Source: Acidobacteriota bacterium
GTDB taxonomy: Bacteria; Acidobacteriota; Terriglobia; UBA7540
Assembly: GCA_902812465.1 (NCBI GenBank)
Contig: CADDZE010000024.1
Coordinates: forward strand, 1 to 56,708
Direction: 5' to 3'
Length of the DNA: 56,708 bases
The stretch's first letter is position 1; the number at the start of each line of letters is the position of its first letter. The position numbers and the translations under genes were made by a program. The notes under the pieces were generated by a model, which saw only the letters and a list, made by a program, of their open reading frames with translations, was not told the DNA's origin and searched no databases. Shown here in pieces: positions 36,761 through 55,913 of the stretch.

Positions 36761-36893
36761 TGTGCTCAAGAGCGGGACTTCCTGAGCCGCCAGTCGTGGC
36801 GCTCTCCAGGTAGCGGTCCCCAACCAGACCGACGTGGCCGGCTGAGGTAACGCGCGCGCTCACGCGTCATCTTACGGCAGGAGGGAAGATGAG

Positions 36894-38363: not shown

Positions 38364-38476
38364 TCGCTCCGAACAGACACTTCGCCGCGAGTGTAGAAGC
38401 TAATGAGGAGTGAAGCCTCCCCATTGGAGCTCGCGCATTACGAACCCACGATCGGTTTCGATTGCCCTCTAGGGAA

Positions 38477-39361: not shown

Positions 39362-39388
39362 GTCCCGTCGGCAAGCTAGGTGTGCTCT

Positions 39389-40312
39389 CTAGCCTCGCGT
39401 GGCCACGGATGGCTGGCGGCTGGCGGCCAACGTCCGCGCCATGGTCTCACCGATTAGCGCCGGGCTCGCAGCTATCTGGATACCTGCCGCTTCCAAGGCC
39501 GCGATCTTGTCAGCAGCCGTGCCTTTGCCTCCGGAAATGATCGCCCCGGCATGGCCCATGCGGCGTCCCGGAGGTGCCGTGCGGCCGGCAATGAATCCCA
39601 CCACTGGCTTGCGCACGTGCGCTTTGATGAATTCGGCCGCTTCCTCCTCCGCCGTTCCGCCTATCTCGCCGATCAGAACGATGCCGTGGGTTTCGACGTC
39701 ATCGTTCATTAGCCGCAGCACGTCCACGAAGGTCGTGCCGACGATGGGATCACCGCCGATACCGACGCAAGTGGACTGCCCAATGCCAAGAGCGGTGAGC
39801 TGCGCGACGGCTTCGTAGGTTAGCGTGCCACTGCGCGAGATCACGCCGACGTGGCCGCGCTCATGTATCCGGCCTGGCATAATCCCGACCTTGCATTTCC
39901 CCGGCGAAATGACGCCCGGGCAGTTAGGTCCAATCAAGCGGGTCCGCGGTCGTCCGGCGAGATACTGCTTGACCCTGACCATGTCTAGCGTGGGAATGCC
40001 CTCGGTGATGCAGACAATCAACGGCAGACCAGCGTCGGCGGCCTCCATGATGGCGTCAGCTGCGAACGCCGGAGGCACAAAGATCATCGACACGTTGGCG
40101 CCAGTGGCTTCCACCGCCTTAACCACGGTGTTGAACACCGGCACTTCGTAATTACCATCCTTACTCTCCCAGATGGTTCCGCCCTTACCGGGCGTCACGC
40201 CGGCCACCACCTTGGTTCCGTAAGCCAGGCACTGCTCCGCGTGGAACCCGCCTTCGCGGCCCGTGAGGCCCTGGACGAGGAGGCGGCTGTTTTCGTCGAC
40301 CAGAATAGCCAT
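39389..40312 (-). CDS. sucD: Succinyl-CoA synthetase alpha subunit
   Basis: This alpha subunit (307 residues) carries the CoA-binding Rossmann domain ([18 protein letters not shown]), [20 protein letters not shown] and the phospho-histidine loop [17 protein letters not shown]. With SucC it interconverts succinyl-CoA and succinate while forming ATP or GTP. The start lies 9 bp after the sucC stop, as expected for an operon. Confidence 0.97.
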
Positions 40313-40321
40313 AGGCTCGAT

Positions 40322-41482
40322 TCAGCGGGCCATTGCCACAACCTTTTCGGCTGCCTCTTTCATGCCGCTAGCTACGGTAAAGTTTAGACCGCTCTCGCGC
40401 AGGATCTGTTGCCCCAGCTCCACGTTGGTGCCCTCCAGCCGGACCACCACGGGAATCTGAATGCCGAGGGATTTGGCTGCAGCGACGACGCCGTTGGCCA
40501 CAATGTCGCAGCGCATGATGCCGCCGAAGATGTTAATGAGGACGGCGCGCACGTTAGGGTCGCTGAGGATGATCTCGAAGCCGTGCCTCACCTGTTCTTC
40601 GCTGGCGCCTCCGCCAACGTCGAGAAAGTTGGCTGGGCGTCCCCCAGCGTACTGGATGATGTCCATAGTAGCCATAGCCAGGCCGGCACCGTTCACCATG
40701 CAACCGACGTTGCCGTCCAGGCGAATGTAGTTCAAGCCGTAGTTAGTCGCTCTCACTTCGAGCGGATCCTCTTCGTTCGTGTCGCGCAGGTCGCGGATGT
40801 CAGGGTGGCGGAAGAGGGCGTTATCATCGAAGTTCATCTTGGCGTCCAGCGCCAGCAGCCGCCCGTCCGGGGTCACGACCAATGGATTAATCTCGGCCAG
40901 TGACGCGTCCGTAGCCTCAAAGGCACGATAGAGGGCCTGGAAAAGCTTTGCCGCCTCGCTCACCTGACGCGGGTCAAGTTGGAGTCCGAAGGCCAGCTTG
41001 CGCGCTTGAAAGGCCTGAAAGCCTACTGCGGGGTCAATGAACTCCTTGAGAATTCTCTCCGGGTGCCGCGCCGCCACTTCCTCGATCTCCACGCCGCCTT
41101 CCGTTGAAGCCATGAATACCGGGCGTCCGGAGCTGCGGTCAATCACCAGACCGAGATAGAGCTCGCGGGCAACGTCGAGTGCTTCCTCGACTAACACGCG
41201 GCGCACCGTGCGCCCCTGCGGACCGGTCTGGTGCGTGACCAGTTTCATGCCTAGGATTTGGCGCGCTACCGCCTCGGCTTCATCCGGCCCGCGAGCCCGT
41301 TTGACTCCGCCGGCCTGGCCGCGTCCTCCCGCGTGAATCTGCGCTTTGATCACCACCGTACCGCCCCCGAGCCGGTGCACCACTCCACGCACCTCGTCGG
41401 GGCTTTCAATTACCTCACCGCGCGGGATGGCCACGCCGTAGCGAGCAAGGATCTGCTTGGCCTGGTATTCGTGGATTTTCAC
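40322..41482 (-). CDS. sucC: Succinyl-CoA synthetase beta subunit
   Basis: The beta subunit (386 residues) has the ATP-grasp domain and the subunit contact region: [17 protein letters not shown] at the N-terminus, [32 protein letters not shown] and [11 protein letters not shown]. The start is GTG 41482, (V)[11 protein letters not shown], with GGAGG 8 nt upstream; the 37 extra residues of the longest frame are not supported. Copy 3 of the conserved intergenic element lies about 160-200 bp upstream, with sucD and dapD following downstream. Confidence 0.97.
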
Positions 41483-41879
41483 TGAAACCGCCTCCACTGC
41501 GGTCGTCCGCTGCCAGCAGCCGTTGACTATGAGCTTGCGGTCTTGAGCGCCAAACGGATTTTTCAGTATAGGGACGGAAGCCGGGGATGGCAATTCCTAA
41601 TCCCAAAACACGGCTTACTGGGATTTGGCCGGAGGGCTCGATCTCGTATTTTCAATCACATATCCGGTTCGTTTCGTCAAATCGATATTTGCGCTACAAG
41701 ATCACGGGCGGGGTCGGCTCGCCCCGTAAACAATGTTGACATTCGATACCTGTCTGACAAGACGGACCAGGTGCGCCACCGTGTGTGGCTGCTCACGACC
41801 GCATTGGGAACAGCTGATGGGTGCCGCTCTAGCCGACTTTCCGCTGAGGAGCCGGCCCCCGTGGCTCCTGATAACCAAC
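41483..41879. other. Intergenic region between sucC and plsY
   Basis: About 400 bases without a supported gene. It contains copy 3 of the conserved element (41643-41681). About 45-60 bp from it lies the imperfect palindrome GTAAAC-AAT-GTTGAC (41726-41740). A GTAAAC also follows copy 2 at a similar distance (26083), which may be coincidence. Confidence 0.5.
41643..41681 (-). promoter_or_regulatory. Conserved intergenic element, copy 3 (upstream of sucC)
   Basis: Read towards sucC it begins TTTGACGAAACGAACCGG and continues ATATGTGATTGAAAATAC. It is nearly identical to copy 2 (35 of 39). TTGACG could serve as a -35 box. The conserved CGAACCGG core and the following TGATTGAAAA argue for selection on the whole element. 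Confidence 0.6.
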
Positions 41880-42491
41880 CTACGAGCCACGAACCGACCC
41901 GCACCCCACCTGGCTCTCCGTCCCGTTGATGAGGCGGCGGATGTTCGCGTGATGCCGGGCGATGATCAGCACCGCCGAAGCTGCGGCGCCCGCCACGATG
42001 GCGCGTGGCGTGCTCTTGAGTAGGTAAACGAAAACGGGGAAGGAGGCCGCGGCCGTGATCGAGCCCAGCGAAACGTAGCGCCAGGCAGCCAATACGACCG
42101 CGAACAAGGCCAGGGCCAGTCCCGTCGGGGCTGGTGCGAGCAGCAAGAACGCGCCCACCCCGGTGGCGACGCCCTTACCTCCGCGGAATCCCAGCCATAC
42201 CGGAAAGATATGGCCCGTGATCGCTCCGAAGGCCGCAAGAGCCGTCCAGCACGGATCCTGGTGGGTTAAGCTGGAGGCCAGCCAGACAGCACCCCTTCCT
42301 TTACCCGCGTCCAAAAGCAGAGTTGCCACGAACCCGGCAATGCCCAGGTTCCGCATGACGTTGGTGGCGCCCGTTGAGTGGCTTCCAGTCTCGCGCACAT
42401 CGATGCCCTTGCGCCAGCGGACGATGAGATAGCCGAAGGGAATTGCACCCAGCAGGTAAGCTGCCAGCACGGATGAGAGTCGGGCTAGCAT
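41880..42491 (-). CDS. plsY: Acyl-phosphate:glycerol-3-phosphate acyltransferase
   Basis: PlsY is the inner-membrane enzyme that puts the first acyl chain onto glycerol-3-phosphate from acyl-phosphate. The 203-residue protein has the three signatures: LLGAIPFGYLI, GSHSTGATNVMRNLG and FPVWLGFRGGKGVATGVG, within several transmembrane segments. It ends the reverse-strand run that starts with rimO. The gap to thpR is 113 bp. Confidence 0.94.
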   Translation of the reverse strand: MLARLSSVLAAYLLGAIPFGYLIVRWRKGIDVRETGSHSTGATNVMRNLGIAGFVATLLLDAGKGRGAVWLASSLTHQDPCWTALAAFGAITGHIFPVWLGFRGGKGVATGVGAFLLLAPAPTGLALALFAVVLAAWRYVSLGSITAAASFPVFVYLLKSTPRAIVAGAAASAVLIIARHHANIRRLINGTESQVGCGSVRGS

Positions 42492-42604
42492 CGCTTTAGC
42501 CGAGGGCGGATGGTTGCGCCCGGAGATCGAAGCCGTTCAGGACGGAGAGCCCGAACCGAAGGCGCCTCCAACCCCCCTGGTCGTCCTGCTCCGGCCGACT
42601 AATG

Positions 42605-43180
42605 TCAACCCTGATTGAACCGTTCCACCTTGCGGTATTCCGCACCATGCGGTGACAGTTTGCTCTCAAAGAGAAAGAACTCGTTCACTTCGAATCGTCC
42701 CAGGCTCTGCTCGCCCTGTCGCTCGACAATTGCCCCTAACCGCGGCAGCGGCCGGGGCGTCTTGAAACGCGCCAGAGTGAGGTGGGGTGTGAAGGGTCGC
42801 GACTCCCGCGGAAAGCCCAGCGTGGCGACTGCCTCTTCCACGCGGCGGGCCAGTTGGGCCAGTTCCGGGGAAGGCTCGATTCCCACCCAGAGAACGCGTG
42901 GCCGCGTTAGGCCGGGAAAACCGCCCAGGCCTTTGACCTCGACCGCGAAGGGAGCGAACGCTGGGAGCTCACGCATCGCCTGGACCACTTGCGCCAACCG
43001 CTCTGATGGAACCTCGCCTAAGAACTTCAGGGTCAGGTGAATACCTTCCGGGCGGACCCAGGTAGCTCCGCGGTGAGCATCATCTTGCGTTTGCTCCAAG
43101 GCCGAGCGAATGGTGGATTGCAGCCGCTGCAACTCGCTGCGGACACCTGGCGGTAGATCGATGGCGATAAACGCGCGCAC
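42605..43180 (-). CDS. thpR: RNA 2',3'-cyclic phosphodiesterase (LigT family)
   Basis: This 191-residue 2H phosphoesterase opens the 2',3'-cyclic phosphate of RNA ends. It shows the two HxTx catalytic motifs, HLTLKFLG and HLTLARFK, spaced as in the family. The start is GTG 43180 at (V)RAFIAIDLP, the conserved N-terminus; the 25 residues before it do not fit. It follows cinA by 114 bp on the same strand. Confidence 0.92.
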   Translation of the reverse strand: MRAFIAIDLPPGVRSELQRLQSTIRSALEQTQDDAHRGATWVRPEGIHLTLKFLGEVPSERLAQVVQAMRELPAFAPFAVEVKGLGGFPGLTRPRVLWVGIEPSPELAQLARRVEEAVATLGFPRESRPFTPHLTLARFKTPRPLPRLGAIVERQGEQSLGRFEVNEFFLFESKLSPHGAEYRKVERFNQG

Positions 43181-43294
43181 GGGCGAGCCGGAGTTAAAAA
43201 TCAGAACCCGAAGTTTCAATAGCCCAAGGGCAATCCTGAGCGTGCGCCCAGCCAAGGCAGGCGGCCAGGGGCGTAAAACTTCGGCGCGGTGCTA

Positions 43295-44530
43295 TCAGCT
43301 TCGCACCCGCCGGCGGATCATTTCCAGCGCCGCTTGCGAGGCCCAGAAGCGCACCCGCTCGCGATCGCCAGGGAAGCGGAACTCGCGCACACTGGTTCCT
43401 TTCTCATCGGCGAGGCCAATGAACACTAGCCCCACAGGTTTCTCCGGCGTTCCGCCCCCGGGCCCGGCAATGCCGGTGATGCCTACGCCCAGGGAGGCAT
43501 CCGCCCGACGCCGCACACCTTCGGCCATAGCCTGCGCTACCGGCTTGGAGACGGCTCCGTGGGTAGCAATCAAGGCCTCGGGCACACCGGCCAGCAGCGT
43601 CTTGAGCTCGTTGCTGTAACACACGACTCCGCCCAGGAAGAAGTTGGAGCTCCCGGCGATACGCGTCAGGCGTTCGCTTAGCAAGCCGCCGGTGCAGCTT
43701 TCGGCTACGGCCACCGTCCGGCGCCGCATCATGAGGTACATGCCCACCACTTCTTCCAGACTTTCACCGCGTGTCGAGAAGATGTGGTCCCCCAAGGCTA
43801 GCTCAATTTTGTCACCCAGCTCGTTGAGCAATGCTTCGGCCTCAGCATCCGAGGCGGCGCGGGCCCGCAGGTGGATTTCGATGGCTCCCAGGGTGGCGAG
43901 GACAGTCGTGGTGGGGTTGGTATAAGCGGTATAGATCGGCGCGATGCGCAGATCGACCTCGGATTCCGGCAAGCCTACCACCTTGTAGACGCGGCTGCGC
44001 AGCCGTTCCCCGGTGGTGCGGCGTTCCAGGCGCGGCAGGCAAGCCGATTCGAACATGGCTTCCAGTTCCTGGGGAGGACCCGGTAGCAGGATGAGGGTGG
44101 TACTACCCAGCTCCAGCCAGATCCCCGGGGCGGTGCCGTTGGGGTTCTCGAGCCACTCGGCGCCCTCTGGAACCAGGGCTTGGCGCAAATTGTTCTCCGG
44201 CATCGGGCGACCCAGGCGTTTGAAGCGGCTCTCGATGCGGGCGCGAATTTCGGGCACCTCGCGCAGAGGACGGCCGAGCACGCTGGCCACCACATCGCGG
44301 TTGATATCGTCCTTGGTAGGGCCGAGTCCGCCGACGAGAATCACTAGCTCCGATCGCCCGAGGGCCGCCTGCAGGACAGCCGCCAAGCGCTCGCGGTCGT
44401 CCCCCACCACGGTCTTGAAACGCACTTCGATACCGAGTTCATTCAGCTTGCCGGTGAGGTAGAGGGAATTAGTATCCTGGCGAAAGGGTGTGAGTAGCTC
44501 CGACCCGACAGCTATGATCTCAGCGTCCAT
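43295..44530 (-). CDS. cinA: CinA family protein (nucleotide/NMN amidohydrolase type)
   Basis: This 411-residue two-domain protein has the MoCF-biosynthesis-like N-terminal domain (AEIIAVGSELL, ILVGGLGPTKDDINRDVV, LLPGPPQELEAMFE). The C-terminal CinA domain (TVAVAESCTGGLLSERLT, GITGIAGPGGGTPEKPVG) hydrolyses NMN to nicotinate mononucleotide in several bacteria. Both domains are complete. ATG 44530 is chosen at MDAEIIAVG; the longer frame adds 19 unsupported residues. It belongs to the rimO-yacG-pgpA-TIG/propeller-cinA run. Confidence 0.94.
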   Translation of the reverse strand: MDAEIIAVGSELLTPFRQDTNSLYLTGKLNELGIEVRFKTVVGDDRERLAAVLQAALGRSELVILVGGLGPTKDDINRDVVASVLGRPLREVPEIRARIESRFKRLGRPMPENNLRQALVPEGAEWLENPNGTAPGIWLELGSTTLILLPGPPQELEAMFESACLPRLERRTTGERLRSRVYKVVGLPESEVDLRIAPIYTAYTNPTTTVLATLGAIEIHLRARAASDAEAEALLNELGDKIELALGDHIFSTRGESLEEVVGMYLMMRRRTVAVAESCTGGLLSERLTRIAGSSNFFLGGVVCYSNELKTLLAGVPEALIATHGAVSKPVAQAMAEGVRRRADASLGVGITGIAGPGGGTPEKPVGLVFIGLADEKGTSVREFRFPGDRERVRFWASQAALEMIRRRVRS

Positions 44531-44583
44531 GCCAGGACGGTGATGACGAGGGAGGGGAACCCGAAGCGTCCGGGCCCCGCCCG

Positions 44584-45684
44584 TCACTCCAGCAGAGGCT
44601 TGCCTTCCACGTCTAGGAAGAGTTCAACCAGGGAGTCGTTAGTAGCCAGGACGACGGACCGGTGCGCCGTGAATGCCAGGCCCACAATGCCTTGGCCGGA
44701 GATGGCCAGCTCGGCCTGCCCGGCGGGATCGATCCGCACGACGCCGCGCCGTCCGGCGAGAGAGGCCGCCACGTACAGATTACCCTTCACGTCGAACGCC
44801 ATCCCTTGAGGGCGTCCTAGCCCGCGATAAAAAGTGCTGACCTCCCCGGCCGGCGAGATGCGGACGATCTGGTCAAAACTCGACGTCGTGGGCCCGGAGA
44901 CATAAAGGTACCCATCGGGTCCGAAGGCGAGATGGTAGGCCGAGACGCTAGGCTCAAGCGTGGCAAAGACAAAGATTTGCCGGTCGCGATTAATCTTGAA
45001 GATCGTCCCGCTGCGGTCGCCTACATAAAGGTTTTGCTCCCGGTCGAACGCAATCCCGGTGGCGATGCCCATTCCCTCGGCATAGATCGTCCGCCGGCCA
45101 TCCGGGGTAACCTGGTAGATGGTGCCCTCCATCCGGCTGGAGATGTAAAGCAGGCCGTCGCGATCAAAAGCGAGCCCTGTGGGGTTCATCAGATCATTCA
45201 AGAAGGGACGCATCATGTTGTGGCGGTCAATCTTGTAGACGGTGACGGGAATTTTCTGGCCGCGGCTGCCGCTAAAGGTCGTGAAGATATTGCCGGCGGC
45301 GTCCAGGGCAGGGTTAGCCACGGGATGCAGGTTTTCTGCTATGGTCACACCCACCGCAACGAAGGCCGGTGGACTGACCGCCGTGCCGGTATCGACGGTG
45401 ACGTCGCCGCTGGTCACGTCTTCGGGAACGCGTACTACAAGACGGCTCGGGGAACTCATCACCACCGCGCCCGGCTGCTCCCCGAAGCGCACTACGGGGC
45501 GCCGCAGGCCGTTTTCGGTAAAGCCTCGGCCGCGAATCGCGACCTCCCCACCGGCGATCGCCGCCGCAGGCGTCACGCTCTCAATAAAAGGTTTCTCCCG
45601 CGGCGGCCCTGACTTCTCCCCGGCTTGGTTCTCCGCTTTAGCCATTCCGTAACCCCGCCGGCTATCCTTTTTGAACAGACTCAT
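44584..45684 (-). CDS. IPT/TIG domain plus NHL/SMP-30-like beta-propeller protein
   Basis: This 366-residue protein has an N-terminal IPT/TIG Ig-like domain (IESVTPAAAIAGGEVAIRG, ENGLRRPVVRFGEQPGAVV). It is followed by repeats of a beta-propeller (NPTGLAFDRDGLLYISS, IATGIAFDREQNLYVGD, RPQGMAFDVKGNLYVAA). Such propellers bind partners or carry lactonase-like sites; I see no firm catalytic set. There is no signal peptide, so it is probably cytoplasmic, which is unusual for TIG proteins. The ATG overlaps the pgpA stop as ATGA (45681-45684). Placement between pgpA and cinA is unexplained. Confidence 0.82.
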   Translation of the reverse strand: MSLFKKDSRRGYGMAKAENQAGEKSGPPREKPFIESVTPAAAIAGGEVAIRGRGFTENGLRRPVVRFGEQPGAVVMSSPSRLVVRVPEDVTSGDVTVDTGTAVSPPAFVAVGVTIAENLHPVANPALDAAGNIFTTFSGSRGQKIPVTVYKIDRHNMMRPFLNDLMNPTGLAFDRDGLLYISSRMEGTIYQVTPDGRRTIYAEGMGIATGIAFDREQNLYVGDRSGTIFKINRDRQIFVFATLEPSVSAYHLAFGPDGYLYVSGPTTSSFDQIVRISPAGEVSTFYRGLGRPQGMAFDVKGNLYVAASLAGRRGVVRIDPAGQAELAISGQGIVGLAFTAHRSVVLATNDSLVELFLDVEGKPLLE

Positions 45685-46193
45685 CGGAACGCGAACTGGA
45701 GCAGCGACAGGATGACGAGGGCGTAGGCGCCCGCCACCACATCGTCTAACATAATTCCCCAGCCGCCGGGCAGGTTCTCAGCGCGGCGGGCCGGGAAAGG
45801 CTTCACCACATCCAGGGCTCGGAAGAGTAAGAACCCTGTGACGAGCCACTTCCATGAGGCTTCCGGTTGCCCTACGTACGCCATCAACTGGCCAGCCACT
45901 TCATCGATGACCACCGGTGCCGGATCGAGGCAGCCAAAATATCGCTCGCCGCACCCGGCGGTCCAGGCGCCAGCGGCAAACACCACCGCGGCGCCCACCA
46001 TGAGCCATAAACGTGGCGGCCACGCCGACGTCCCCGGGAAGGCAGCCAGCAACGGCCCACTCCGGGGAAAGCGCTGTCCGGCTTCCACGAGCAAGACCGC
46101 GACGGCGGAAGCCATCGTGCCAGGAGCGACGGGGAAATCTCCCACGCCGCCGCAGGTAGCAATCCAGACCGGCCAAGGCCGGCGCGCGCTCAC
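45681..46193 (-). CDS. pgpA: Phosphatidylglycerophosphatase A
   Basis: PgpA removes phosphate from phosphatidylglycerophosphate to give phosphatidylglycerol. The 170-residue membrane protein has the family segments TCGGVGDFPVAPGTMAS, VIDEVAGQLMAY, GFLLFRALDVVKPFPARR and GWGIMLDDVVAGAYA, with hydrophobic stretches between them. The GTG at 46193 overlaps the yacG stop (GTGA), and its own stop overlaps the next start. Together with plsY this run contributes to membrane lipid synthesis. Confidence 0.93.
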   Translation of the reverse strand: MSARRPWPVWIATCGGVGDFPVAPGTMASAVAVLLVEAGQRFPRSGPLLAAFPGTSAWPPRLWLMVGAAVVFAAGAWTAGCGERYFGCLDPAPVVIDEVAGQLMAYVGQPEASWKWLVTGFLLFRALDVVKPFPARRAENLPGGWGIMLDDVVAGAYALVILSLLQFAFR

Positions 46194-46426
46194 GGTTCAG
46201 CCTCGTCCGGATTCGGGTCGGCGGTACTCGAACCGCGGCGCGCCAAGCTCGGGTCCGCGGGGCACCCCGCAATTCGATAGCGGCCGGAGAGCCAATTGTC
46301 CAAGTCAATAAGCTGGCAGCGCTCGCTGCAAAACGGCCGGTACGGATTGTCAGCCGCCGGAACCTCTCGTCGGCAAATCGGGCAACGCCCGATGCTGGAC
46401 TTCCGGTGGCGAACACCCTCCCTCAT
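46190..46426 (-). CDS. yacG: DNA gyrase inhibitor YacG-type zinc protein
   Basis: This 78-residue zinc protein has the YacG fold: RCPICRREVP, then RPFCSERCQLIDLDNWLSG. That is a CPxC...CxxxC site and the conserved L(I)DL(D)xW motif. YacG binds and inhibits DNA gyrase in E. coli; many bacterial homologues are less studied. ATG 46426 overlaps the rimO stop (ATGA, 46423-46426), and the stop overlaps the GTG of pgpA. The start is decided by this overlap; 24 earlier in-frame residues are rimO shadow. Confidence 0.92.
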   Translation of the reverse strand: MREGVRHRKSSIGRCPICRREVPAADNPYRPFCSERCQLIDLDNWLSGRYRIAGCPADPSLARRGSSTADPNPDEAEP

Positions 46427-47859
46427 ACCATGGCGGGCTGGATGTTGACCAGCCCCGGCGGTGCCGAGCCCTGCCGCGCGAGAGGGAGCGGATGGCAAGC
46501 AGGCGCCGGCTCAGCCAGGCAATGCGCCTCCAGCCGTGCGACCAAATCGTAGTCCAGGCGCTGGGTGATGCTAGCCCAGCGGAACTCGCCGGGCCGCGGC
46601 TCTGGTCCGTCAAAGTCGTTGATGAGGACGTGGCCATCGATCTCGGGTGCTTGAGACTCGAGCCGGCCTTCGAAGAGCAAGTCTGTCTCGCGAGACCTCC
46701 CCTCGACGAGCACGGGCAAGGTCTGCCCGACGAGCCGAGCAAGCCTGCGGCGCGAAATCCTCCGTTGGAGGGCCATCAACTTGCGCTGGCGCTGCTTCGC
46801 CACGGACGCCGGAACCTGGCCGGGCAGGCCAGAAGCGGCGCACGTCTCCTCGTTTGAATAGACGAAAACTCCGAGATGGTCGAATTCCGCTGCCTGGACA
46901 AAATCCGTGAGCACCTGGAAATCCGCTTCGGTTTCACCCGGGAAGCCAACGATCAGGGTAGTGCGCAAGGTCACGCCGGGGATGGCGGCGCGAATGCGCT
47001 CGATCATCCTGAGAAAATGCTCCCCGCTCGAGCCGCGCTTCATCCGCCGCAGCACCGCGGCGCTCGCGTGTTGCAACGGAATATCAAAGTACTTGCAGAT
47101 TTTGGGCGAGCTCGCCACCGCCTCGATGAGGCTATCGCTTACCCGATTGGGATAAAGGTAGAGGAAGCGCAGCCAAACCAGGTCGGGAATCGCACTCAAC
47201 TGGCGGAGGAGGGTTGCCAAACCATGGCGCAGCCCAAGGTCTTCGCCGTAGCTGGTTGTGTCCTGGCCCACCAGTGTGATCTCGCGCACGCCCCGGCTTA
47301 CTAGGCCTTCTGCCTCGCGGACCACCGACTCGGGGTGCCGCGAACGGAAGCGGCCGCGCATCTGGGGAATCACGCAGAAGGAACACGGATGGTTGCAGCC
47401 CTCAGCGATCTTGATATAGGCCGAATAGGGAGGCGTGGTCAGCAGGCGTGGCGTCGACTCCGTGTACAGATACGGAGTGTAGGGGCGATTGGCCAGGCGC
47501 TGTGGGCCGGGCACACACGCCTCGAACACACGCTCCAGCTCATGGGGACCCAGAACAAAGTCAACCTCCGGGATCTCCTGCAAAATTTCCTGGCGGTAAC
47601 GCTCGACGAGGCAGCCGGCGACGATCAACCGCTTGGCCTTGCCCTGCTCCTTGTAGGAGGCCATCTCGAGGATGGCATCGATGGATTCGCGTTTGGCAGG
47701 CTCGATGAACGCGCAGGTGTTGACGATGAGGACATCGGCATCCTCCGCGCGGGCTGTGACCTCGTAACCGTGCCGGGCGAGAATGCCCAACATCACCTCG
47801 CTGTCGACGAGGTTCTTCGGGCAGCCCAGACTCACCATCCCCACCCTCGGCATCGTCAT
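46423..47859 (-). CDS. rimO: Ribosomal protein S12 methylthiotransferase
   Basis: RimO is a radical-SAM enzyme that adds a methylthio group to an aspartate of ribosomal protein S12. The 478-residue protein has the N-terminal MTTase domain (VSLGCPKNLVDSEVMLG, VNTCAFIEPAKRES) and the radical-SAM cluster CNHPCSFCVIPQMRG. IPLQHASAAVLRRMKRG and a C-terminal TRAM-like domain complete it. GCPKNLVDSE separates RimO from MiaB. It heads a closely spaced run of at least five genes. Confidence 0.95.
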   Translation of the reverse strand: MTMPRVGMVSLGCPKNLVDSEVMLGILARHGYEVTARAEDADVLIVNTCAFIEPAKRESIDAILEMASYKEQGKAKRLIVAGCLVERYRQEILQEIPEVDFVLGPHELERVFEACVPGPQRLANRPYTPYLYTESTPRLLTTPPYSAYIKIAEGCNHPCSFCVIPQMRGRFRSRHPESVVREAEGLVSRGVREITLVGQDTTSYGEDLGLRHGLATLLRQLSAIPDLVWLRFLYLYPNRVSDSLIEAVASSPKICKYFDIPLQHASAAVLRRMKRGSSGEHFLRMIERIRAAIPGVTLRTTLIVGFPGETEADFQVLTDFVQAAEFDHLGVFVYSNEETCAASGLPGQVPASVAKQRQRKLMALQRRISRRRLARLVGQTLPVLVEGRSRETDLLFEGRLESQAPEIDGHVLINDFDGPEPRPGEFRWASITQRLDYDLVARLEAHCLAEPAPACHPLPLARQGSAPPGLVNIQPAMV

Positions 47860-47969
47860 TACGCGCCGCTCACGGCTCCTGACCCATTTTCATTCTAGCA
47901 CAGCGCCACATTCGTCCGAACGCGCTCTGCCAGGGAAAGCCGGGCCGGAGGATAGTGCCTCCAGCCCCT

Positions 47970-49145
47970 TCAGTGATTTCCTGCCGACCACACAAACACG
48001 CTGCGTTCCGAGCTCGCAGCGAGGTAATGGCCCGTGGGCGAGAAGGCGACGGTAACGATCGGTTCGCGACCCTCCTCCAGCGTCTGCATCAGGTTTCCGT
48101 CCATCGCCGACCAAATGCGGACAGTAGTGTCCTCACCCCCCGAGGCCAGCCACTTCCCGTCGTGCGAAAACTCAGCCCAGTGGACTGGGCCCTGGTGCCC
48201 GCTGAGCGTCGCCAGCAGTTTCCAGTCTCCGGCGGAGAAGAGGCGCACCTTGCCATCCTCACAAGCGGTTGCTACCCGTCGGGCGTCGGGCGAGAAGGCG
48301 ATGGAGAGCACAGTGCCCTGGTGTCCAGCGAGAACATCGACGAATTGATGCTGTCGCAAGTCAACTACTGCCGGGTTGCCGGTGGCATTGGCTTCGATCT
48401 GGGCCAGCAGCAGCCAGTGGCCGTCAGGCGAAAAAGCAAAGAGGTTGGGCCGGTGAGTAAGGCCGGGCACAGCTACCCTTCCTCCGCGGTTACTTTCGGG
48501 ACTCCATAAGTCGAAGTGGCCTTCCTTGTACAGACCTACGTAGCCGATCTGGGGAAAGTAGAGGATCGGTCCAAAGCCGCCCCCTGCCCCGACTGCCTTC
48601 ACAGTGCCAAAGAGACTGTCCCCGTCGATGTACCACTCGAAGCCCAGCAGAGGCGTCCGCGGCAGAACACCCTTTTCCTTCCCCTTCACCTGAACTAAAC
48701 CGCTTGCCAGGATGAACAGCCGGGTGGGCGAAATAAAGTTCGCCGACTCAACAGCGAGGTCGATGACATCCTGCAAGTGGGGATGGAGCACCTTGCGGAC
48801 GCTAAAGCTGCTCAGGTCGATGAGCGCAATTTTATCCTGGTTGACGATGGCCAGAGTGGAACCATCCGGAGAAAAGGCGGCGTCGGGAGAATACTTCAGG
48901 GCCAGGTGTCCATCAGTGCGGCCGTGATGGGTCCAGAGGGGCGCCTCGGCCGGCCCCCCGGTTTCTACTTGCCCTCGCACTGGCGGAGGACCCGGTGCCC
49001 ACAGGCAAACCAGCACCAGGGCACTGAACCACCGGAAGCCGTGAGCGCTCGCTGCGGGAAACCAGGGCGCCCCACCAGACTCCCTCCCGTCACCGATTGC
49101 TGGACCCTCGAAACCACTGGCGGCAGCGCCGGGCACTCTCCGCAC
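47970..49145 (-). CDS. Exported WD40-repeat protein
   Basis: This protein of about 391 residues has a hydrophobic signal-like segment near residues 37-59 (FRWFSALVLVCLWAPG). WD40-type blades are clearest at the C-terminus: LAGHQGTVLSIAFSPD, LSGHQGPVHWAEFSHDG and GGEDTTVRIWS, VTVAFSPTGHYLAASS. Earlier blades are degenerate (AAFSPDGSTLAIV). It is probably a periplasmic or secreted binding propeller without an enzymatic role. The GTG at 49145 overlaps the stop of the Nudix gene by one base. The long N-terminal region before the signal suggests the start could be further downstream. Confidence 0.8.
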   Translation of the reverse strand: MRRVPGAAASGFEGPAIGDGRESGGAPWFPAASAHGFRWFSALVLVCLWAPGPPPVRGQVETGGPAEAPLWTHHGRTDGHLALKYSPDAAFSPDGSTLAIVNQDKIALIDLSSFSVRKVLHPHLQDVIDLAVESANFISPTRLFILASGLVQVKGKEKGVLPRTPLLGFEWYIDGDSLFGTVKAVGAGGGFGPILYFPQIGYVGLYKEGHFDLWSPESNRGGRVAVPGLTHRPNLFAFSPDGHWLLLAQIEANATGNPAVVDLRQHQFVDVLAGHQGTVLSIAFSPDARRVATACEDGKVRLFSAGDWKLLATLSGHQGPVHWAEFSHDGKWLASGGEDTTVRIWSAMDGNLMQTLEEGREPIVTVAFSPTGHYLAASSERSVFVWSAGNH

Positions 49146-49549
49146 TAGAGCACCTCACCTCGGGCAATCCGGCGGACCAATTCGCGGTCCGCTTCGAGGA
49201 AATGGAAGGCGGGCAGCTCCGTGCGGCGAACCCACTGGATACTTTCAAAGACCCGGTTGCGTACGGTGCCGTGGTAGCGAGGGACGGCAAAGAAAACCAC
49301 TTCAACGTACCGGTCCGCGTATCGATGCCGCAGGCGAAAAACCTCCGGGCCAATCTCCGCGTCGATGCCCAATTCTTCCGCGAGCTCCCGCCGCAACGAA
49401 GTCTTCAGGTCTTCGCCGCTCTCGACCTTGCCACCTGGAAACTCCCACTGCAGTCCGTAAGGGTCGGAATTGTGCCGCTGGCAGATCAGCACCCGGTCTC
49501 CCTCCCTTAAGATGCCTGCGGCGACAAGTGTAGGTTGCTGACGGGGCAC
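49145..49549 (-). CDS. Nudix hydrolase, MutT-like (8-oxo-dGTP diphosphatase type)
   Basis: This 134-residue enzyme hydrolyses a nucleoside diphosphate linked to another moiety; MutT members remove oxidised dGTP. The Nudix box GGKVESGEDLKTSLRRELAE followed by ELGI is complete, and WEFPGGK just before it is typical of MutT. Substrate is not certain. The start is GTG 49549, (V)PRQQPTLVAAGIL, with a weak ribosome site. Its stop overlaps the start of the WD40 gene. Confidence 0.9.
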   Translation of the reverse strand: MPRQQPTLVAAGILREGDRVLICQRHNSDPYGLQWEFPGGKVESGEDLKTSLRRELAEELGIDAEIGPEVFRLRHRYADRYVEVVFFAVPRYHGTVRNRVFESIQWVRRTELPAFHFLEADRELVRRIARGEVL

Positions 49550-49599
49550 GGAGAAAGTGTAGCAGGCGCCGGCTCTTGGCGTGGGGTCCGTTGAACCGT

Positions 49600-50208
49600 C
49601 TATTCCAACGGGCCGACCGGAATGGAGGCGGGTGGGGTTGCCCCAACACGTTTCCTCGCGCGCGGGCGCAGCCGGTAGCGAGCGCGGAGAATCGAAGCAA
49701 TCACAATGAGACCGAAACAGCTCTCGACAAATACCTTCTCGCCATCCAACGGATCGATGCGGCTGCCGTCAAGCTTCGGGTTGGTTAAGAGCCCGTGGAT
49801 GAATAGGCCAGCTGCCACGGCATACGTGAGGAAGTGCAGCCGTTTCCAAAGATGCCGCCCTAAACGCAGGCGGTAGATGGAAGTAATGATGACGACGACC
49901 AGAAGATAAAGCGCCGCGGCTCCCATCGTGTTTTCCACGGGCTGGCTCGGCGACCAAAGCGGCAGAGCGATGTCCAGTACACGGAAGCTGGCGCGCGCGG
50001 CCAGCAGCAATGGAAGAGGGTGAAGAGCGGTAACGGCCAGCGTGCAATAGCCCGTACGACGGTGCAGCCAGAAAACATCAAACGGGCGAAGAGGCCAAAA
50101 GCGTACCGGGCTGTAGCGCACCGAAATCAACAGCCCAATGCAAATGTTGAGCGTCACGAACCCCACGGCCACCAGACCCAAGTCCGCGGACAAATCGAGC
50201 GCGGTCAC
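49600..50208 (-). CDS. Ferric-reductase-like transmembrane (MsrQ-type haem) protein
   Basis: This integral membrane protein of about 202 residues has roughly five hydrophobic segments and histidines placed as haem ligands: WLHRRTGYCTL, ALHPLPLLL, RLHFLTYAVAAGLFIHGLLT. This fits the ferric reductase/MsrQ/YedZ family, in which two b haems pass electrons across the membrane. No MsrP-like molybdoenzyme is adjacent. The start is GTG 50208 with GAGGAG about 8 nt upstream. The 170 bases between it and the malectin regulator hold no feature I recognise. Confidence 0.85.
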   Translation of the reverse strand: MTALDLSADLGLVAVGFVTLNICIGLLISVRYSPVRFWPLRPFDVFWLHRRTGYCTLAVTALHPLPLLLAARASFRVLDIALPLWSPSQPVENTMGAAALYLLVVVIITSIYRLRLGRHLWKRLHFLTYAVAAGLFIHGLLTNPKLDGSRIDPLDGEKVFVESCFGLIVIASILRARYRLRPRARKRVGATPPASIPVGPLE

Positions 50209-50381
50209 TCTGCGTCTCCTCAGCTCGAAGTTCTTGAACTTTCATCGGTCACGCTCCAACGTAGCAGACGCCGCCGGCGTCGCCGGGGTTACGTGGACTC
50301 GCGAAGGGGCGCCGCAGGCTCGGGGGGGCACGCAGCCCGGCATGGCCCCGCCACACCAGCATCCAGATCCTGTCTGGGCGT

Positions 50382-52019
50382 CTACTCCGACTCCACCTCG
50401 ATGGCATTGACCTTGGCGTAGTTTCGCACCGGAACGAAACTGAAGATCAATTTACCCTGGGCGTTGGGGCGAAGGTGGTGGAACGTCCGCCTGAGAGCGC
50501 GATTTTCGCCCCCCGCTTCCTTGAAGATGTCAAAGTGCTGGAGCAGAGCCACTCCATTGCAGTAGACGTCGAAGATCCGGCTGCCCGGCCCGCCCTTGCC
50601 GGCATTGCTGGGGCCGAAGTAGGTTTCGGCGAAATGGAGCGTGGCTTTGTAGGTGCCCGGGGCAACTGGGATGGCGTAGCTGAAATTGCCGAAGCGCTCG
50701 CCGGCATAGAGGTCAGGATCGGCGCTGCCTTCCACCAGCCGGCGATGGTTCACCAGGCGGCCCCCGGCCGCATAACGGTCCGGCCTCCAGAGATGGCCGG
50801 CATAGTCGGTGTAGCTGTGGTCCTGAGCCAGGATGCGAATCGGCTGCATCTTGCCAGGGATCCCAGGGATCACTTCGAAGGCGTTCAGCACCGGATAGTC
50901 GTTCAGCTTAACGAACTGGAGGTGGAGGTGGCCGTCGGCAGCAGGATGAACGTCAGTGAAGACGCGCTCATCGGCGACAAAGTTGCCGCCCGCATCGGAG
51001 ATGGGGTCGAAGTTGCAAAGCAGGGGCGCTCCGTTGGCAAGCACATTGAACACCCGGGTAGTCTCGCCACCCCCGCTGAGGGTTCCTGGGCCATAGAGGG
51101 TCTCGGCGAAATAGAGGTGCAACTCGTAGGTGCCGGGCTGCAAGGGAATGTTGTAGGAAAACTCCCCCAAACGCGCTTGCTGAAAGAGGACGGGATCTCC
51201 CGTGCGCGCAATAAAGACTTGCGCCTGGGAGGTTGCTCCGCCGCCTTGATAATAGCGATCCGGCCCCCAAACCTTGCCCTCCCGGTCGATATAGTTCTCG
51301 CGAAAATAGCCGCAGAGAACGCGCACCTCTGGCAGCGCTGGCATCGCAGCGGGTGGCACCGCCGCGTTCGTAACAGCTGGGCGTGGGGCCGGGGACGACT
51401 CCCGCATGCGCCACCTCCATCGGGCGAAAAGGCCGACGCCCAGGAGCATCGATGCCGCCGCGGCCAAAACCGTCCATTTCCATTGTCGCCGGGTGGGCGC
51501 GGACAAGGAACGAGCGGGGGCGGCGGGTGAGGCCGGCAAGGCTCCCGCGGGCTCCTCTGCTACGACAGCGGCATCCGTGCCGTCCCCCGATCCATTACCC
51601 CGCGAGCCTGTCGGGGGGCTAGCGGGTTCGGAGCCTGCTAGGGCTGGGTCGAACGCCTCGCGGCGGATGAACTCTGGCACATAGCTGCCGGGACGCAACA
51701 CGATCACGACGGGGTCCGCTATGCCTTCGGTCTCGTAGTAGCGCCTGAGCTTATCCCTCAAGCGATGCAGATCAACGCGGACGCTGGAATTGGTAGTGGG
51801 ATCGAAGTCGAGCGGTCGCCCCAGCGCCTCCACACCAATGTTGTATTCCTTGAGATCGTGACTCCGGCCTTGAAAGTACTTTGTGCAAAGGTATTGGAGT
51901 AGGCGCGCCAGGTTGGGCGACTTACTGAAGCAGTCGGAGGTCAGTACCGCCCCGAGAGCGGCGTGCTGCTCGGCAGACGGGGTGAGCGCTCCTGCCTCTC
52001 TCTGGAAATCCACCTTCAT
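50382..52019 (-). CDS. Membrane-tethered winged-helix regulator with two malectin domains
   Basis: This 545-residue protein looks like a one-component transmembrane regulator. Residues about 15-118 form the acidobacterial-type winged-helix DNA-binding domain (RLLQYLCTKYFQGR, SSVRVDLHRLRDKLRRYYE, RPGSYVPEF). A Pro/Ala/Gly-rich linker follows. One transmembrane helix lies at about 180-204 (KWTVLAAAASMLLGVGLF). Outside are two malectin-like carbohydrate-binding domains at about 232-393 and 395-543. Each begins (V/I)R(V/I)L and shares WGPDRYYQGG/WRPDRYAAGG, FSY(N/A)IP(L/V)xPGTY and LHFAET-type motifs. Malectin domains bind di- or oligosaccharides in known cases. I infer that glycan binding outside controls DNA binding inside, as in ToxR-like proteins. 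Target genes are unknown; no glycosidase lies beside it. Confidence 0.88.
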   Translation of the reverse strand: MKVDFQREAGALTPSAEQHAALGAVLTSDCFSKSPNLARLLQYLCTKYFQGRSHDLKEYNIGVEALGRPLDFDPTTNSSVRVDLHRLRDKLRRYYETEGIADPVVIVLRPGSYVPEFIRREAFDPALAGSEPASPPTGSRGNGSGDGTDAAVVAEEPAGALPASPAAPARSLSAPTRRQWKWTVLAAAASMLLGVGLFARWRWRMRESSPAPRPAVTNAAVPPAAMPALPEVRVLCGYFRENYIDREGKVWGPDRYYQGGGATSQAQVFIARTGDPVLFQQARLGEFSYNIPLQPGTYELHLYFAETLYGPGTLSGGGETTRVFNVLANGAPLLCNFDPISDAGGNFVADERVFTDVHPAADGHLHLQFVKLNDYPVLNAFEVIPGIPGKMQPIRILAQDHSYTDYAGHLWRPDRYAAGGRLVNHRRLVEGSADPDLYAGERFGNFSYAIPVAPGTYKATLHFAETYFGPSNAGKGGPGSRIFDVYCNGVALLQHFDIFKEAGGENRALRRTFHHLRPNAQGKLIFSFVPVRNYAKVNAIEVESE

Positions 52020-52219
52020 GCAGGTGACGTCCTACCTTGAGCTGCCCGACGCCAGAAAAGCGTTGAACCTTCCCCCCACGGCTTCGGAACTCGTCCTGCG
52101 CCCAATTATACGCCTCTTAAAATGAAGCGCGCATTGCAAGACCTTGCCCGCGCTCCGCGCCCTTTCACCCATATCCCTTTGATCAACTCACGGCGTAGGC
52201 GCACGGACGGCTTCTGAAG

Positions 52220-53599
52220 CTAGCGGGAGCGCATAGCGTCCTCGATCGCGTCTGGATCGCGAGGCAGACGCTGGCTAAGGAGTTCGGCACCGTCCGGAGT
52301 AATCAGAATCATATCCTCGATGCGAACCCCAAGCTTCTCCTCCGGAATGTAGATCCCCGGCTCGACAGTGACCACCATGCCGGGCTCGAGCGGCGCGCCG
52401 CTGGGCATCGGATCGTGCACATTGAGGCCCACCGAATGACCGATGCCATGGATGAAGTACTGGCCCAGCGGCTGTCCGTGCAGGTCTTTGCCGTGCGCAT
52501 TGATGTAGTCGCGGGCGATGTTAACCAGTGTGTTCGAGCCCTTGCCGCTGATGATAGCCCCCGGCTTGGCCGCAGCCAGAACGGCATTCTGCGCTCCCAG
52601 CACGACTTCATAGATCTCACGCTGGCGCGGGCTGAAATGACCACTCACCGGCAGGGTCCGAGTTAGGTCGCTGGCGTAGCCGCTGTACGACCCTGCCACA
52701 TCCATGACCACTACGTCACCGTCCTGCATCTGATGATCGTTCGCATCGTAGTGCAGCACGGTGGAATAAAAGCCCGAACCCACGATGGGCGGGTAGGATG
52801 GCCACTCGCAGCCCAGGCGCTCGAACGTGTACTTCATCAGGGCGGCCACCTGATATTCCCAAACGCCAGGGTGCACCGCTTTCATGGCCGCAAGTTGGGC
52901 CTCGATGGAGGCGTCTACGGCCTTGCGGATCAGCGCTATTTCCGACGGCGACTTGACGGCACGCAGGGCAGTGAGGACTGGGCGCACGTCGGCGAGCTCG
53001 GCCTGGGGCGCCAGCTTGCGAAGTTGGGCCGTAGCGTCTTTCTGGAAGCAGTCTTCGCCGCTTTCCGGCTGGGGCGTCAATTCGGTGTAAATCTTCGGGA
53101 AGGCCTTCAGTGCCTCACGCAGCTCCTTTTCGAATTGGGCCGTGCTCCGCACCAGCTCGAATCCGGTGCGGGCCGGGGCATCGGGATCGTCAGGGCCGAG
53201 CTTTGGCCCGGTCCACTTCTCCTGCCGCAGGTCGTGCGGCGGGATGAAAAGCATCTCCTTGCCCAGCTTCCCGGGTGGACCGGCTACGGGAGAGGTTTTG
53301 GGACTCGTGGGAACGAGAAGCATCATGGCGCCGGGCTCGTTCCATCCGGTGAGATAGTAGAACGCTTCGTTTTGATGGAAGGTGGTGACGGAGGCGGCCA
53401 CGTCCTGCTCGCCGTAGCCGAAGAGGACAACCAGGCCGTCGCCGCCCGTTTTCTCGATCACCTGAGCCCGGCGGTGATGGTAATCGGCGAGTGATCCTCG
53501 ATCCCACGCCCCCGCCGGCAGTGCGCGGCACAGTAGGGCGAGCGCTGCTACCATCGGCAGGACGGAGCCTCCGGCAGCACTTCGCCATCTCGTTTTCAT
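52220..53599 (-). CDS. Exported Xaa-Pro aminopeptidase family (M24) metallopeptidase
   Basis: This 459-residue peptidase removes the residue before proline from peptides. ATG 53599 (AAAGGA upstream) gives a signal peptide (SVLPMVAALALLCRALPAGA). An AMP_N domain (YYLTGWNEPGAMMLLVP) leads into the pita-bread catalytic domain. The metal ligands are all visible: Asp in VVVMDVAG, Asp in YASDLTRTLP, His in GIGHSVGLNVHD, Glu in TVEPGIYI and Glu in GVRIEDM. Activity is expected in the periplasm or outside the cell. The product matches the normal PepP length. Confidence 0.93.
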   Translation of the reverse strand: MKTRWRSAAGGSVLPMVAALALLCRALPAGAWDRGSLADYHHRRAQVIEKTGGDGLVVLFGYGEQDVAASVTTFHQNEAFYYLTGWNEPGAMMLLVPTSPKTSPVAGPPGKLGKEMLFIPPHDLRQEKWTGPKLGPDDPDAPARTGFELVRSTAQFEKELREALKAFPKIYTELTPQPESGEDCFQKDATAQLRKLAPQAELADVRPVLTALRAVKSPSEIALIRKAVDASIEAQLAAMKAVHPGVWEYQVAALMKYTFERLGCEWPSYPPIVGSGFYSTVLHYDANDHQMQDGDVVVMDVAGSYSGYASDLTRTLPVSGHFSPRQREIYEVVLGAQNAVLAAAKPGAIISGKGSNTLVNIARDYINAHGKDLHGQPLGQYFIHGIGHSVGLNVHDPMPSGAPLEPGMVVTVEPGIYIPEEKLGVRIEDMILITPDGAELLSQRLPRDPDAIEDAMRSR

Positions 53600-53695
53600 C
53601 GTCAGGTCCTTTCTCCCTGGCTCGGAAGCGCGCCGGAGCAACGCAAACTCTAGACGCGCCAGGCCATGGACCGCCGCGCGACCCGGTCGACGCCA

Positions 53696-54712
53696 CTAGT
53701 CGCGCCGGCCAGCGAAACTGAAAGTCTGTGACACCGCTTTTAGCTCATGGTTCAGCCGGATGTGCGCAACAAATCCTCCGGCAGCAAGCCCGGGGCGGAG
53801 GCCAGTGAAACGCAGGTCTTCAAGCCGGACATCGTAGCCATCTTCGTTCTCGATAGCCTCCGCCCACAAGAAGCGCGCAAAGCTCGAGAAGATGACTCCG
53901 GTGGGCGTCTTCAACGCTGCATCCAGCGCCGGCGACGGCTCGGGTTTGTGGAAGATGCGGGCGGTGGCTGGCGCGACGCCGTTGCCCAGCGCATCGGCGG
54001 CTAGAACATAGAAAGCGGAATCCGTCTCTACCACGCCGATCCACGAGAGCGGATTAGCCGGCTGGGGAAAAGCGCCCAAGCGCACCGGATTTTCGCCACC
54101 GTAGACGTGTGCGTCCAGCATGTCGAGCACTCTGCGGTGCGCGAGGTCGCGGACTCCCCACAAGACGGCCGTCGCGGCGAGGGCTGCCAGGGCTCCACGG
54201 CGGTATCCGCCTCGTCCTGCGCCGACTTCCTCCGAGATCAGGCCGAAAATGGCCGGCAGGCCCAAACCGGCAACCAAGAATAGCAGCAGCAGAGGGTCAA
54301 AGATGAACATGATATCCCAGGCATACCACCGGCCGCTAAATGGGAGAAAGGGCCGCACGCCGTAAGCGTTGGTGAAGTCCATGAGCAAGTGGGTGGCGGT
54401 GGCCAGCCCGCAGGAGGCAAGCAGCCAGGGCCCATTGAGTGGCGGCAGCCCGCGCCTGGCCGGACGGCGCCTGCCCCAGAGGTAAATCACTCCCGCCAGC
54501 GCCACGCCCAACACGCTCACGCCCAGGAGGGAATGCGTGATGCCGCGATGGTATTTCAAGTAGGCGATCGTGCTGCCCCACCCGCTCCAGGCCACGTCCA
54601 CATCGGGAAGGTTCGAGCCGATAAGCAGGGCCAGCGTGGCAAAACGAGTCTTGCCGTTAAGCCCTGCCCGGCTGAGGGCCAGGCCGGTGAGCGTGTGAGT
54701 GATGTTGTCCAT
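53696..54712 (-). CDS. YdjM-like membrane-bound metal-dependent hydrolase
   Basis: This protein of about 338 residues belongs to the DUF457/YdjM membrane hydrolase family. The N-terminus has DNITHTLTGLALSRAG with early His and Asp residues, then GSNLPDVDVAW and KYHRGITHSLLG, the conserved metal-binding set. THLLMDFTNAYGVRPFLPF follows. Several transmembrane segments lie between, and the C-terminal 120 residues are soluble. The physiological substrate of the family is not known. ATG 54712 is chosen at MDNITHT, directly before the motif. Confidence 0.9.
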   Translation of the reverse strand: MDNITHTLTGLALSRAGLNGKTRFATLALLIGSNLPDVDVAWSGWGSTIAYLKYHRGITHSLLGVSVLGVALAGVIYLWGRRRPARRGLPPLNGPWLLASCGLATATHLLMDFTNAYGVRPFLPFSGRWYAWDIMFIFDPLLLLFLVAGLGLPAIFGLISEEVGAGRGGYRRGALAALAATAVLWGVRDLAHRRVLDMLDAHVYGGENPVRLGAFPQPANPLSWIGVVETDSAFYVLAADALGNGVAPATARIFHKPEPSPALDAALKTPTGVIFSSFARFLWAEAIENEDGYDVRLEDLRFTGLRPGLAAGGFVAHIRLNHELKAVSQTFSFAGRRD

Positions 54713-54863
54713 AGGCGCGGAGAGCGTCGCCAGAGAAGCTGAAGGGCCCCGTGCCAGGCGACTCACCTCCACCTAGCCGACGGCGGTCTTTGAGGCGCCT
54801 CGCCCAAGAAGCCAAACTACCCGCCTGCCCGCCGCCGGCGTTTAGCCCATCCAGACCGGCCGC

Positions 54864-55799
54864 TCACGGTGACGGCGCCAGCAGCGTTAACGCGCCCGGG
54901 ACCACCTGGAAGGTGGCTGGGATCGTCCCGGCCAGCTCGCCGTCCAACTCGAAGTAGATGGGCGGGCCGGCGCCCGCCGGCTCGCAGTCAACTTGCTGGC
55001 TCTCGACCAGGGTTACGTCCGGCAGCCGTGTGTGCACTCGCGCTGCCGCAGCCAGAGCGTAGATAACGTAGCGCGTGCGACGGCGGGAGCGAAAGACGCA
55101 CAGCGTGAATCCTGGTTTAAAAAGGCTGCCTTGCGGCACGAGGTGAAACCAACCGGCGTATCGCCGTGTGCGCTGGACCACGCCCAGGCTGCCTCGCCAT
55201 TCCCGGTCCGAGCAGCGGAATGCTACCTCGGGAAAACGGTAGCGCCAGAGCTGCCGCCAGGCCTCGAAAGCATACCCCACTGTGCCCCACGACCTCTTCA
55301 GGCTGGCGGAAAGCCGGTGAATGACATAAGCGTCAAACCCCACACCCGCGACGCTGAGAAAATAGCGGGAATGGGCGGGCGAAGTCGCGAGGCCAGCGGC
55401 TGCTCCATTCTGCCCCCACCGCGCTAAGCCGAGAGCCACACGGCGGGGCGACCATCGCGGCAGCTCGCGGGCGGCGCGCCCGATATCGTGCGGCAGGCCG
55501 AGCTCCTTGGCGAGGATGTTCGCCGTGCCGCCCGGAAGGATACCGAGGATGGTGTGGCCCGGCGACAGACCATTAATCGCCTCGTTGATGGTTCCGTCGC
55601 CACCACAGACAATCACCAGATCACTGTGGGCAGCGGCCGCCCGCGCTAACCCCTGCGCCTCCCCACCCGCGTTAGTCTGGACCAGGTCAATCCTCAGCCC
55701 CTGTGCCCGCAGCTCGGCGGCGGCCTTCTGGACTTCGGCCTCGCGGCGCCGGGGATGGCGCCCCGCGACCGGATTGTAGATGAGCGTGGCTGTCTTCAA
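54864..55799 (-). CDS. Diacylglycerol kinase family lipid kinase, second copy
   Basis: This DAGK-family protein of about 311 residues carries IYNPVAGR, VIVCGGDGTINEAINGL and GILPGGTANILAKELGL. The C-terminal domain has GVGFDAYV and PIYFELDGELAGTIPA, which contain the conserved active-site Asp. It differs clearly from the paralogue at 3648-4589 (GSGNDFA there, GGTANILA here), so the two probably use different lipids. Start TTG 55799 places the conserved IYNP segment near the N-terminus; the longest frame adds 36 residues without family character. The start is uncertain. Confidence 0.88.
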   Translation of the reverse strand: MKTATLIYNPVAGRHPRRREAEVQKAAAELRAQGLRIDLVQTNAGGEAQGLARAAAAHSDLVIVCGGDGTINEAINGLSPGHTILGILPGGTANILAKELGLPHDIGRAARELPRWSPRRVALGLARWGQNGAAAGLATSPAHSRYFLSVAGVGFDAYVIHRLSASLKRSWGTVGYAFEAWRQLWRYRFPEVAFRCSDREWRGSLGVVQRTRRYAGWFHLVPQGSLFKPGFTLCVFRSRRRTRYVIYALAAAARVHTRLPDVTLVESQQVDCEPAGAGPPIYFELDGELAGTIPATFQVVPGALTLLAPSP

Positions 55800-55913
55800 G
55801 GGCAGGGTTTGGCAGGAGGCCGATCGGTCACCAGCGGCAGTTCTGCCCCTTTGCCTCCGTGCCAAGCGCACCGCGACGAACGAACAACACCGCGCCCCCG
55901 GTGGCACCCGCCC

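Follow-up and report, generated by a model that had tools for sequence, protein, structure and literature searches.

The window (the whole stretch of DNA analysed, 56,708 nucleotides from a member of the Acidobacteriota) carries on its minus strand a gene for a 545-aa protein, the features of which are as follows.

50382..52019, minus strand: whole gene, 545 aa (ATG at 52019, stop at 50382), with the domain order found in relatives
51663..51980, minus strand: N-terminal domain, residues 14-119, predicted to be cytoplasmic and a divergent OmpR-type winged helix (AlphaFold2 pLDDT; SaeR, PhoB and CadC matches; weak Trans_reg_C match)
51732..51785, minus strand: putative DNA-recognition helix, residues 79-96, with invariant R81, R88 and L91 (model and invariance in 69 sequences)
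51663..51710, minus strand: putative wing hairpin, residues 104-119, with invariant Y113 (model and alignment)
51483..51656, minus strand: disordered Pro/Ala-rich linker, residues 122-179 (pLDDT mostly <50)
51402..51482, minus strand: single transmembrane helix, residues 180-206 (membrane-segment scan and model)
50859..51335, minus strand: malectin domain 1, residues 229-387, sugar site mostly lost (A282, L284, L308) with Y309 kept
50385..50849, minus strand: malectin domain 2, residues 391-545, sugar-site residues E441, F443, Y467 and F468 kept
52020..52219, no strand assigned: region upstream of the gene, without GTTA/TAAC, unlike that of most relatives

The full-length protein was modelled with AlphaFold2 (alignment of about 69 homologues) at a mean pLDDT of 87. 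The model contains helices at residues 14-26, 35-49, 58-65 and 79-96, then a hairpin at 104-119; this N-terminal domain is followed by the disordered linker, a long hydrophobic helix (180-206) and two beta-sandwiches (approximately 229-387 and 391-545). A DNA-binding-type domain, a single membrane helix and a sensor are thereby combined in one chain, kinase and receiver domains are absent, and the order is conserved in relatives. The combination of a winged-helix-type domain, a transmembrane helix and a pair of malectin domains in one open reading frame, as originally predicted from the letters of the gene, was confirmed by Pfam, AlphaFold and the conserved order, and the prediction of a kinase-less membrane regulator of the winged-helix type with tandem malectin domains is supported.

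The same domain order was found in 14 relatives at 39-57% identity, from related genomes, and in about 80 loci fetched from GTDB, nearly all full length, across Terriglobia; since the order is kept in both sets, the arrangement is not due to chance, and the family search suggested with the original prediction has thus given a positive answer. On genome contigs, a scan with the single sequence returned nothing and an alignment scan recovered the relatives; in these, genes were assigned by the crude criterion of the longest ORF. All 80 GTDB loci bear the names Acidobacteria, Terriglobia, Bryobacterales or genera of Acidobacteriaceae, among them the cultured Edaphobacter aggregans DSM 19364. A survey of the phylum, in which at most 10 candidates per genome were scored so that members may be missed, yielded two additional matches, both within Terriglobia; the restriction to this class rests mainly on the names of the 80 loci. 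The expected wide occurrence in Acidobacteria accordingly holds within one class, on the basis of those names.

The N-terminal domain modelled by itself reached a pLDDT of 91.5. Residues 1-118 matched no Pfam or NCBIfam model above cut-off, and a Foldseek search with the domain alone returned nothing under E = 1; VIA-align was used as a second look. Its top matches were of the OmpR/PhoB type, namely SaeR, PhoB on DNA and RpaA on DNA (Z 6.2 each), and the CadC DNA-binding domain gave Z 5.7; values around 6 are modest and within the range of common arrangements. Because the VIA-align scores may reflect a common arrangement and Foldseek returned nothing, the sequence was taken as a second line of evidence. 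Trans_reg_C of Pfam was weakly matched by the domain in 22 of 69 members (best E 0.00066), and a profile search of the PDB gave chance-level matches only, with SaeR second and the motif region aligned. Across 69 sequences R81, R88 and L91 are invariant and lie on the helix that occupies the place of the recognition helix; Y113, also invariant, lies in the wing. OmpR-type effector domains, including that of CadC, have the topology beta1-4, alpha1-3, wing (PMC5430869). The beta1-4 sheet is missing from the model and helices occupy its place, for which reason the domain is regarded as a divergent winged helix. The structure prediction proposed at the outset has thus given a confident model whose best structural matches, at modest Z, are OmpR-type winged helices, and a DNA-binding function is predicted.

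A membrane segment is present at the matching place in 69 of 69 members; in the window protein it is the only one, and no hydrophobic segment precedes it. Regarding the flanking charges, 34/69 members carry more positive charge on the N side and 20/69 carry less, a weak lean towards an inside N-terminus, and the bias of the window protein itself is opposite (3 vs 4). The N-terminus is most likely cytoplasmic and the malectin pair periplasmic. The malectin domains had been described as extracellular; as the bacterium has two membranes, they would lie in the periplasm rather than outside the cell, and that part of the description should be dropped.

Pfam model PF11721 (Malectin) matches two stretches of the protein (E 8.3e-37, 127 bits against a gathering cut-off of 23). 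The malectin beta-sandwich fold is present; human malectin superposes over one domain with a TM-score of 0.73 by target length and an rmsd of 2.3, and the tandem sandwich is best matched in a structure search by the ectodomains of plant ANXUR and FERONIA (CrRLK1L; E 6e-20 to 2e-17). The sugar-site residues of Xenopus malectin are Y67, E87, Y89, Y116, F117 and D186, and the site of human malectin is also known (PMC13335976). In profile alignments to solved malectins, E87, Y89, Y116 and F117 correspond to E441, F443, Y467 and F468 of domain 2 and to A282, L284, L308 and Y309 of domain 1; these four positions were mapped, there being no confident mapping for Y67 and D186. Among 69 relatives, domain 2 has E or Q at the first site position in 65 and an aromatic residue (Y/F/W) at the second in 63, at the third in 50 and at the fourth in 58, whereas the corresponding numbers for domain 1 are 4, 6, 9 and 54. 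The equivalents of E87, Y89 and F117 are all kept in domain 2 of 52/69 relatives and in domain 1 of 1/69; all four residues (His allowed at Y116) occur in domain 2 of 47/69. With the site residues kept in one copy and mostly lost in the other, a putative working glucose-type site is suggested for domain 2 but not for domain 1. The ligand residues are therefore retained in one of the two copies, and the earlier observation that the copies differ holds exactly at the known sugar site; two equal sugar sites are improbable, domain 1 having lost three of the four mapped residues.

Of the 70 relatives having an upstream gene, 29 carry a divergent, directly adjoining TonB-dependent receptor-like gene, the product of which consists of a PF25183 barrel and a CarboxypepD_reg domain. 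At the other neighbour positions such genes number 0-4, and at positions 3-4 genes away they occur in 3/207 (Fisher p 7e-17). Other neighbours of the regulator in relatives encode TPR proteins, FG-GAP/ASPIC proteins, GH16 enzymes with malectin domains and GH3 enzymes. Divergent pairing with a receptor gene is also found in 17 of the 44 paralogues having an upstream gene; these share the N-terminal domain and carry other sensors, their C-terminal part being mostly of about 250 aa and unrelated to malectin. A single clade of receptors paired with malectin regulators was considered and rejected: the pairing label needs 11 changes on the receptor tree, fewer than in any shuffle, and falls on several lineages. 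This spread over several lineages means that pairing originated, or was retained, more than once. Many relatives, including the copy in the window, have no adjoining receptor gene. In many relatives the regulator most likely controls the divergent receptor gene.

Two further types of neighbourhood were seen. Large proteins similar to malectin adjoin the regulator at L061:3250-6714, L062:8840-11755 and L065:502-6369; scanning found GH16 glycosidase domains in those of L061 and L062, a hint at beta-glucan-type substrates. At L088, L092, L112, L117 and L120 the regulator gene is flanked on one side by a divergent TPR gene and on the other by a 2-amino-3-ketobutyrate CoA ligase-like gene, which is followed by a threonine-dehydrogenase-like gene; no TonB-dependent receptor gene is in sight there, and the target may differ.

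The tetramer GTTA is concentrated upstream of the family genes, at 16.7 per kb as compared with 3.7 in the remaining intergenic DNA of those loci. Of 74 non-redundant upstream regions, 33 contain direct GTTA repeats with a period of 9-11, as compared with a mean of 1.6 (maximum 6) in 500 dinucleotide shuffles of these regions and with 3/207 control intergenic regions, the background sets being derived from crude ORF calls. By this count of repeats GTTA, taken with its complement, ranked first of all 256 tetramers; the next, GTAA/TTAC, was far behind at 15 and overlaps the GTTA(C) unit. The second-turn spacing of 20-23 is also high (25 loci), and few loci (3-6) show off-phase spacings. GTTA density is at its maximum 25-150 bases ahead of the regulator start codon, and repeats were found in 18/29 loci with an adjoining receptor gene and in 17/47 without one. 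Upstream of the paralogues of the N-terminal domain, repeats are rarer (7/47; GTTA 11.7 per kb). OmpR/PhoB-type domains bind head-to-tail repeats one helix turn apart, so that the repeats and the fold of the N-terminal domain support each other, and the GTTA direct repeats are predicted to be operators bound by the regulator.

The upstream neighbour of the window gene is a Xaa-Pro aminopeptidase gene on the same strand. A GTTA operator was sought upstream of the window gene and none was found, the nearest GTTA being 500 bases off, inside the aminopeptidase gene; the closest relative of this copy (L049) retains a GTTA repeat. With both the receptor neighbour and the repeats absent, the target of the window's regulator must lie elsewhere. 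In its genome, 32 GTTA repeats of period 9-11 were counted, as compared with 156 for a reversed control pattern, and there are 66 matches to PF25183 (fragments included). The only other gene with the N-terminal domain found in this genome is an ORF on contig C31 (L159; 6857-8302, plus strand) encoding 481 aa; the protein has a single membrane helix, and its C-terminal region (about 250 aa, no Pfam match) recurs in about 37 relatives from Terriglobia. The gene is divergent from a TonB-dependent receptor gene, and the GTTA repeat GTTAATTCCATGTTA lies between the two. Contig C13 (L209) carries a cluster of TonB-dependent receptor genes at 36000-55900. One of them, starting at C13:49404 on the minus strand, has several GTTA units upstream, including a repeat of 10-bp spacing 188 bases before it, and clusters on the receptor tree, at full local support, with receptors that pair with malectin regulators. 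Two GTTA repeats ahead of receptor genes (C13 and C31) are above expectation (p 0.0055; small number). Going by phylogeny and this one repeat, our guess is that the C13 receptor gene is a candidate target of the window's regulator. Repeats on C4 (not placeable relative to a start codon) and on C35 (within a receptor frame) were set aside.

Taken together, the 545-aa protein is probably a one-component transcription regulator of the inner membrane, with a predicted periplasmic malectin sensor in which mainly domain 2 would bind a glucose-type oligosaccharide and with control exerted through GTTA repeats. A glucose-type oligosaccharide, once in the periplasm, would bind chiefly to malectin domain 2, and the membrane-proximal domain 1 might pack and transmit, or bind something else. 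Ligand binding may alter how two or more copies of the regulator pair in the membrane, and adjacent winged-helix domains would then line up head to tail along GTTA direct repeats with a spacing of about one helix turn. In many relatives the transcription controlled in this way, presumably by activation rather than repression, would be that of the divergent TonB-dependent receptor gene (an importer) and of the regulator gene itself.

Other readings of the sensor and of the N-terminal domain were weighed against this one. The malectin pair might sense a protein or peptide, such as the periplasmic face of the receptor or a component of the envelope, in which case the regulator would report the state of the envelope or of the transporter. 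The nearest tandem-malectin structures are those of the plant CrRLK1L receptors, which have not conserved the canonical sugar surfaces and bind none of the sugars tested; RALF peptides bind FERONIA (PMC6038381). The canonical site is also lost in domain 1 of the regulator. As the plant proteins have lost the site and bound no tested sugar, a non-sugar ligand deserves consideration, but domain 2, unlike the plant proteins, keeps the aromatic and acidic sugar-site positions family-wide, and GH16 and GH3 genes occur as neighbours; we regard such a ligand as unlikely. Much less credible is that the N-terminal domain mediates protein interaction, the GTTA repeats belonging to another regulator. Although it matches no Pfam or NCBIfam family above cut-off and its structural Z is modest, its best structural and its weak sequence matches are both to OmpR-type effector domains, and the repeats also stand beside paralogues that share nothing but this domain (7/47), the paralogue in the same genome among them.

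The direction of control bears on the same repeats. Their position 25-150 bases before the start codon, with or without an adjoining receptor gene, would fit negative autoregulation by a repressor of the regulator gene and of the receptor gene that is released by ligand; CadC and SusR, which resemble the regulator in plan or in job, are activators, however, and repression seems rather improbable. The preferred reading remains that of a sugar-responsive regulator acting on GTTA repeats.

Few groups of soil bacteria are as common as the Acidobacteriota, and they possess TonB-dependent receptors by the dozen, as the 66 matches noted above illustrate. In the literature search no paper describing the regulation of acidobacterial TonB-dependent receptors was found. 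A regulator with a predicted operator and a predicted target makes substrate prediction for the uptake systems of these bacteria testable. With the paralogues included, chances seem about even that Terriglobia possess a large family of membrane one-component regulators, built on the divergent winged helix and interchangeable periplasmic sensors (the malectin pair, the unnamed domain of about 250 aa and others), each dedicated to an importer through GTTA operators and together forming a separately evolved counterpart of the SusR/HTCS systems by which Bacteroidota regulate the uptake of glycans.

No paper was found in which malectin is linked to Acidobacteria, or to a sensor together with a DNA-binding domain in bacteria (subscription journals were mostly outside the search). 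The arrangement had been proposed as an undescribed mode of polysaccharide sensing, and to this extent the proposal stands; the principle of passing sugar sensing to DNA without a kinase is itself known from ToxR-like receptors, SusR and TfoS/ChiS. ToxR-like receptors have a cytoplasmic OmpR-type winged helix, a single membrane helix and a periplasmic sensor and work without a kinase (PMC5430869). The malectin regulator is predicted to have the same one-protein plan as these receptors (ToxR, CadC, TcpP, TfoS), and the CadC domain is among its structural matches; unlike them, it has no N-terminal beta sheet and no significant sequence match for its N-terminal domain, and it combines a malectin pair as sensor with GTTA direct repeats as predicted operators. 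A glycan signal also reaches DNA without a kinase in chitin signalling by TfoS and ChiS (PMC11856585). SusR of Bacteroides sits in the membrane, detects maltose on the periplasmic side and controls the operon of a TonB-dependent importer, with predicted direct-repeat operators; its DNA-binding domain is C-terminal, its repeats are spaced 67-77 bp apart, and proteins of its kind are reported from Bacteroidetes only (PMC3878776). It resembles the malectin regulator in the latter's predicted job, from sugar sensing to importer control, and the likeness is claimed for the job alone, by description, since the DNA-binding domain of the malectin regulator is N-terminal and its GTTA repeats are about one turn apart rather than long-spaced.

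On the sensor side, the malectin fold is common to both domains of the regulator. Animal malectin is a single domain of the ER, the glucose-site residues of which are kept in domain 2; the tandem layout is best matched by the plant CrRLK1L receptors (ANXUR, FERONIA), which have lost the sugar site and signal to a kinase, whereas the malectin regulator has no kinase. To our knowledge it would be the first malectin sensor coupled to DNA without one. In its predicted plan the protein follows ToxR and CadC, and in its likely job SusR; its novelty lies in the use of two malectin domains for sensing, in a divergent form of the winged helix and in the predicted GTTA operator.
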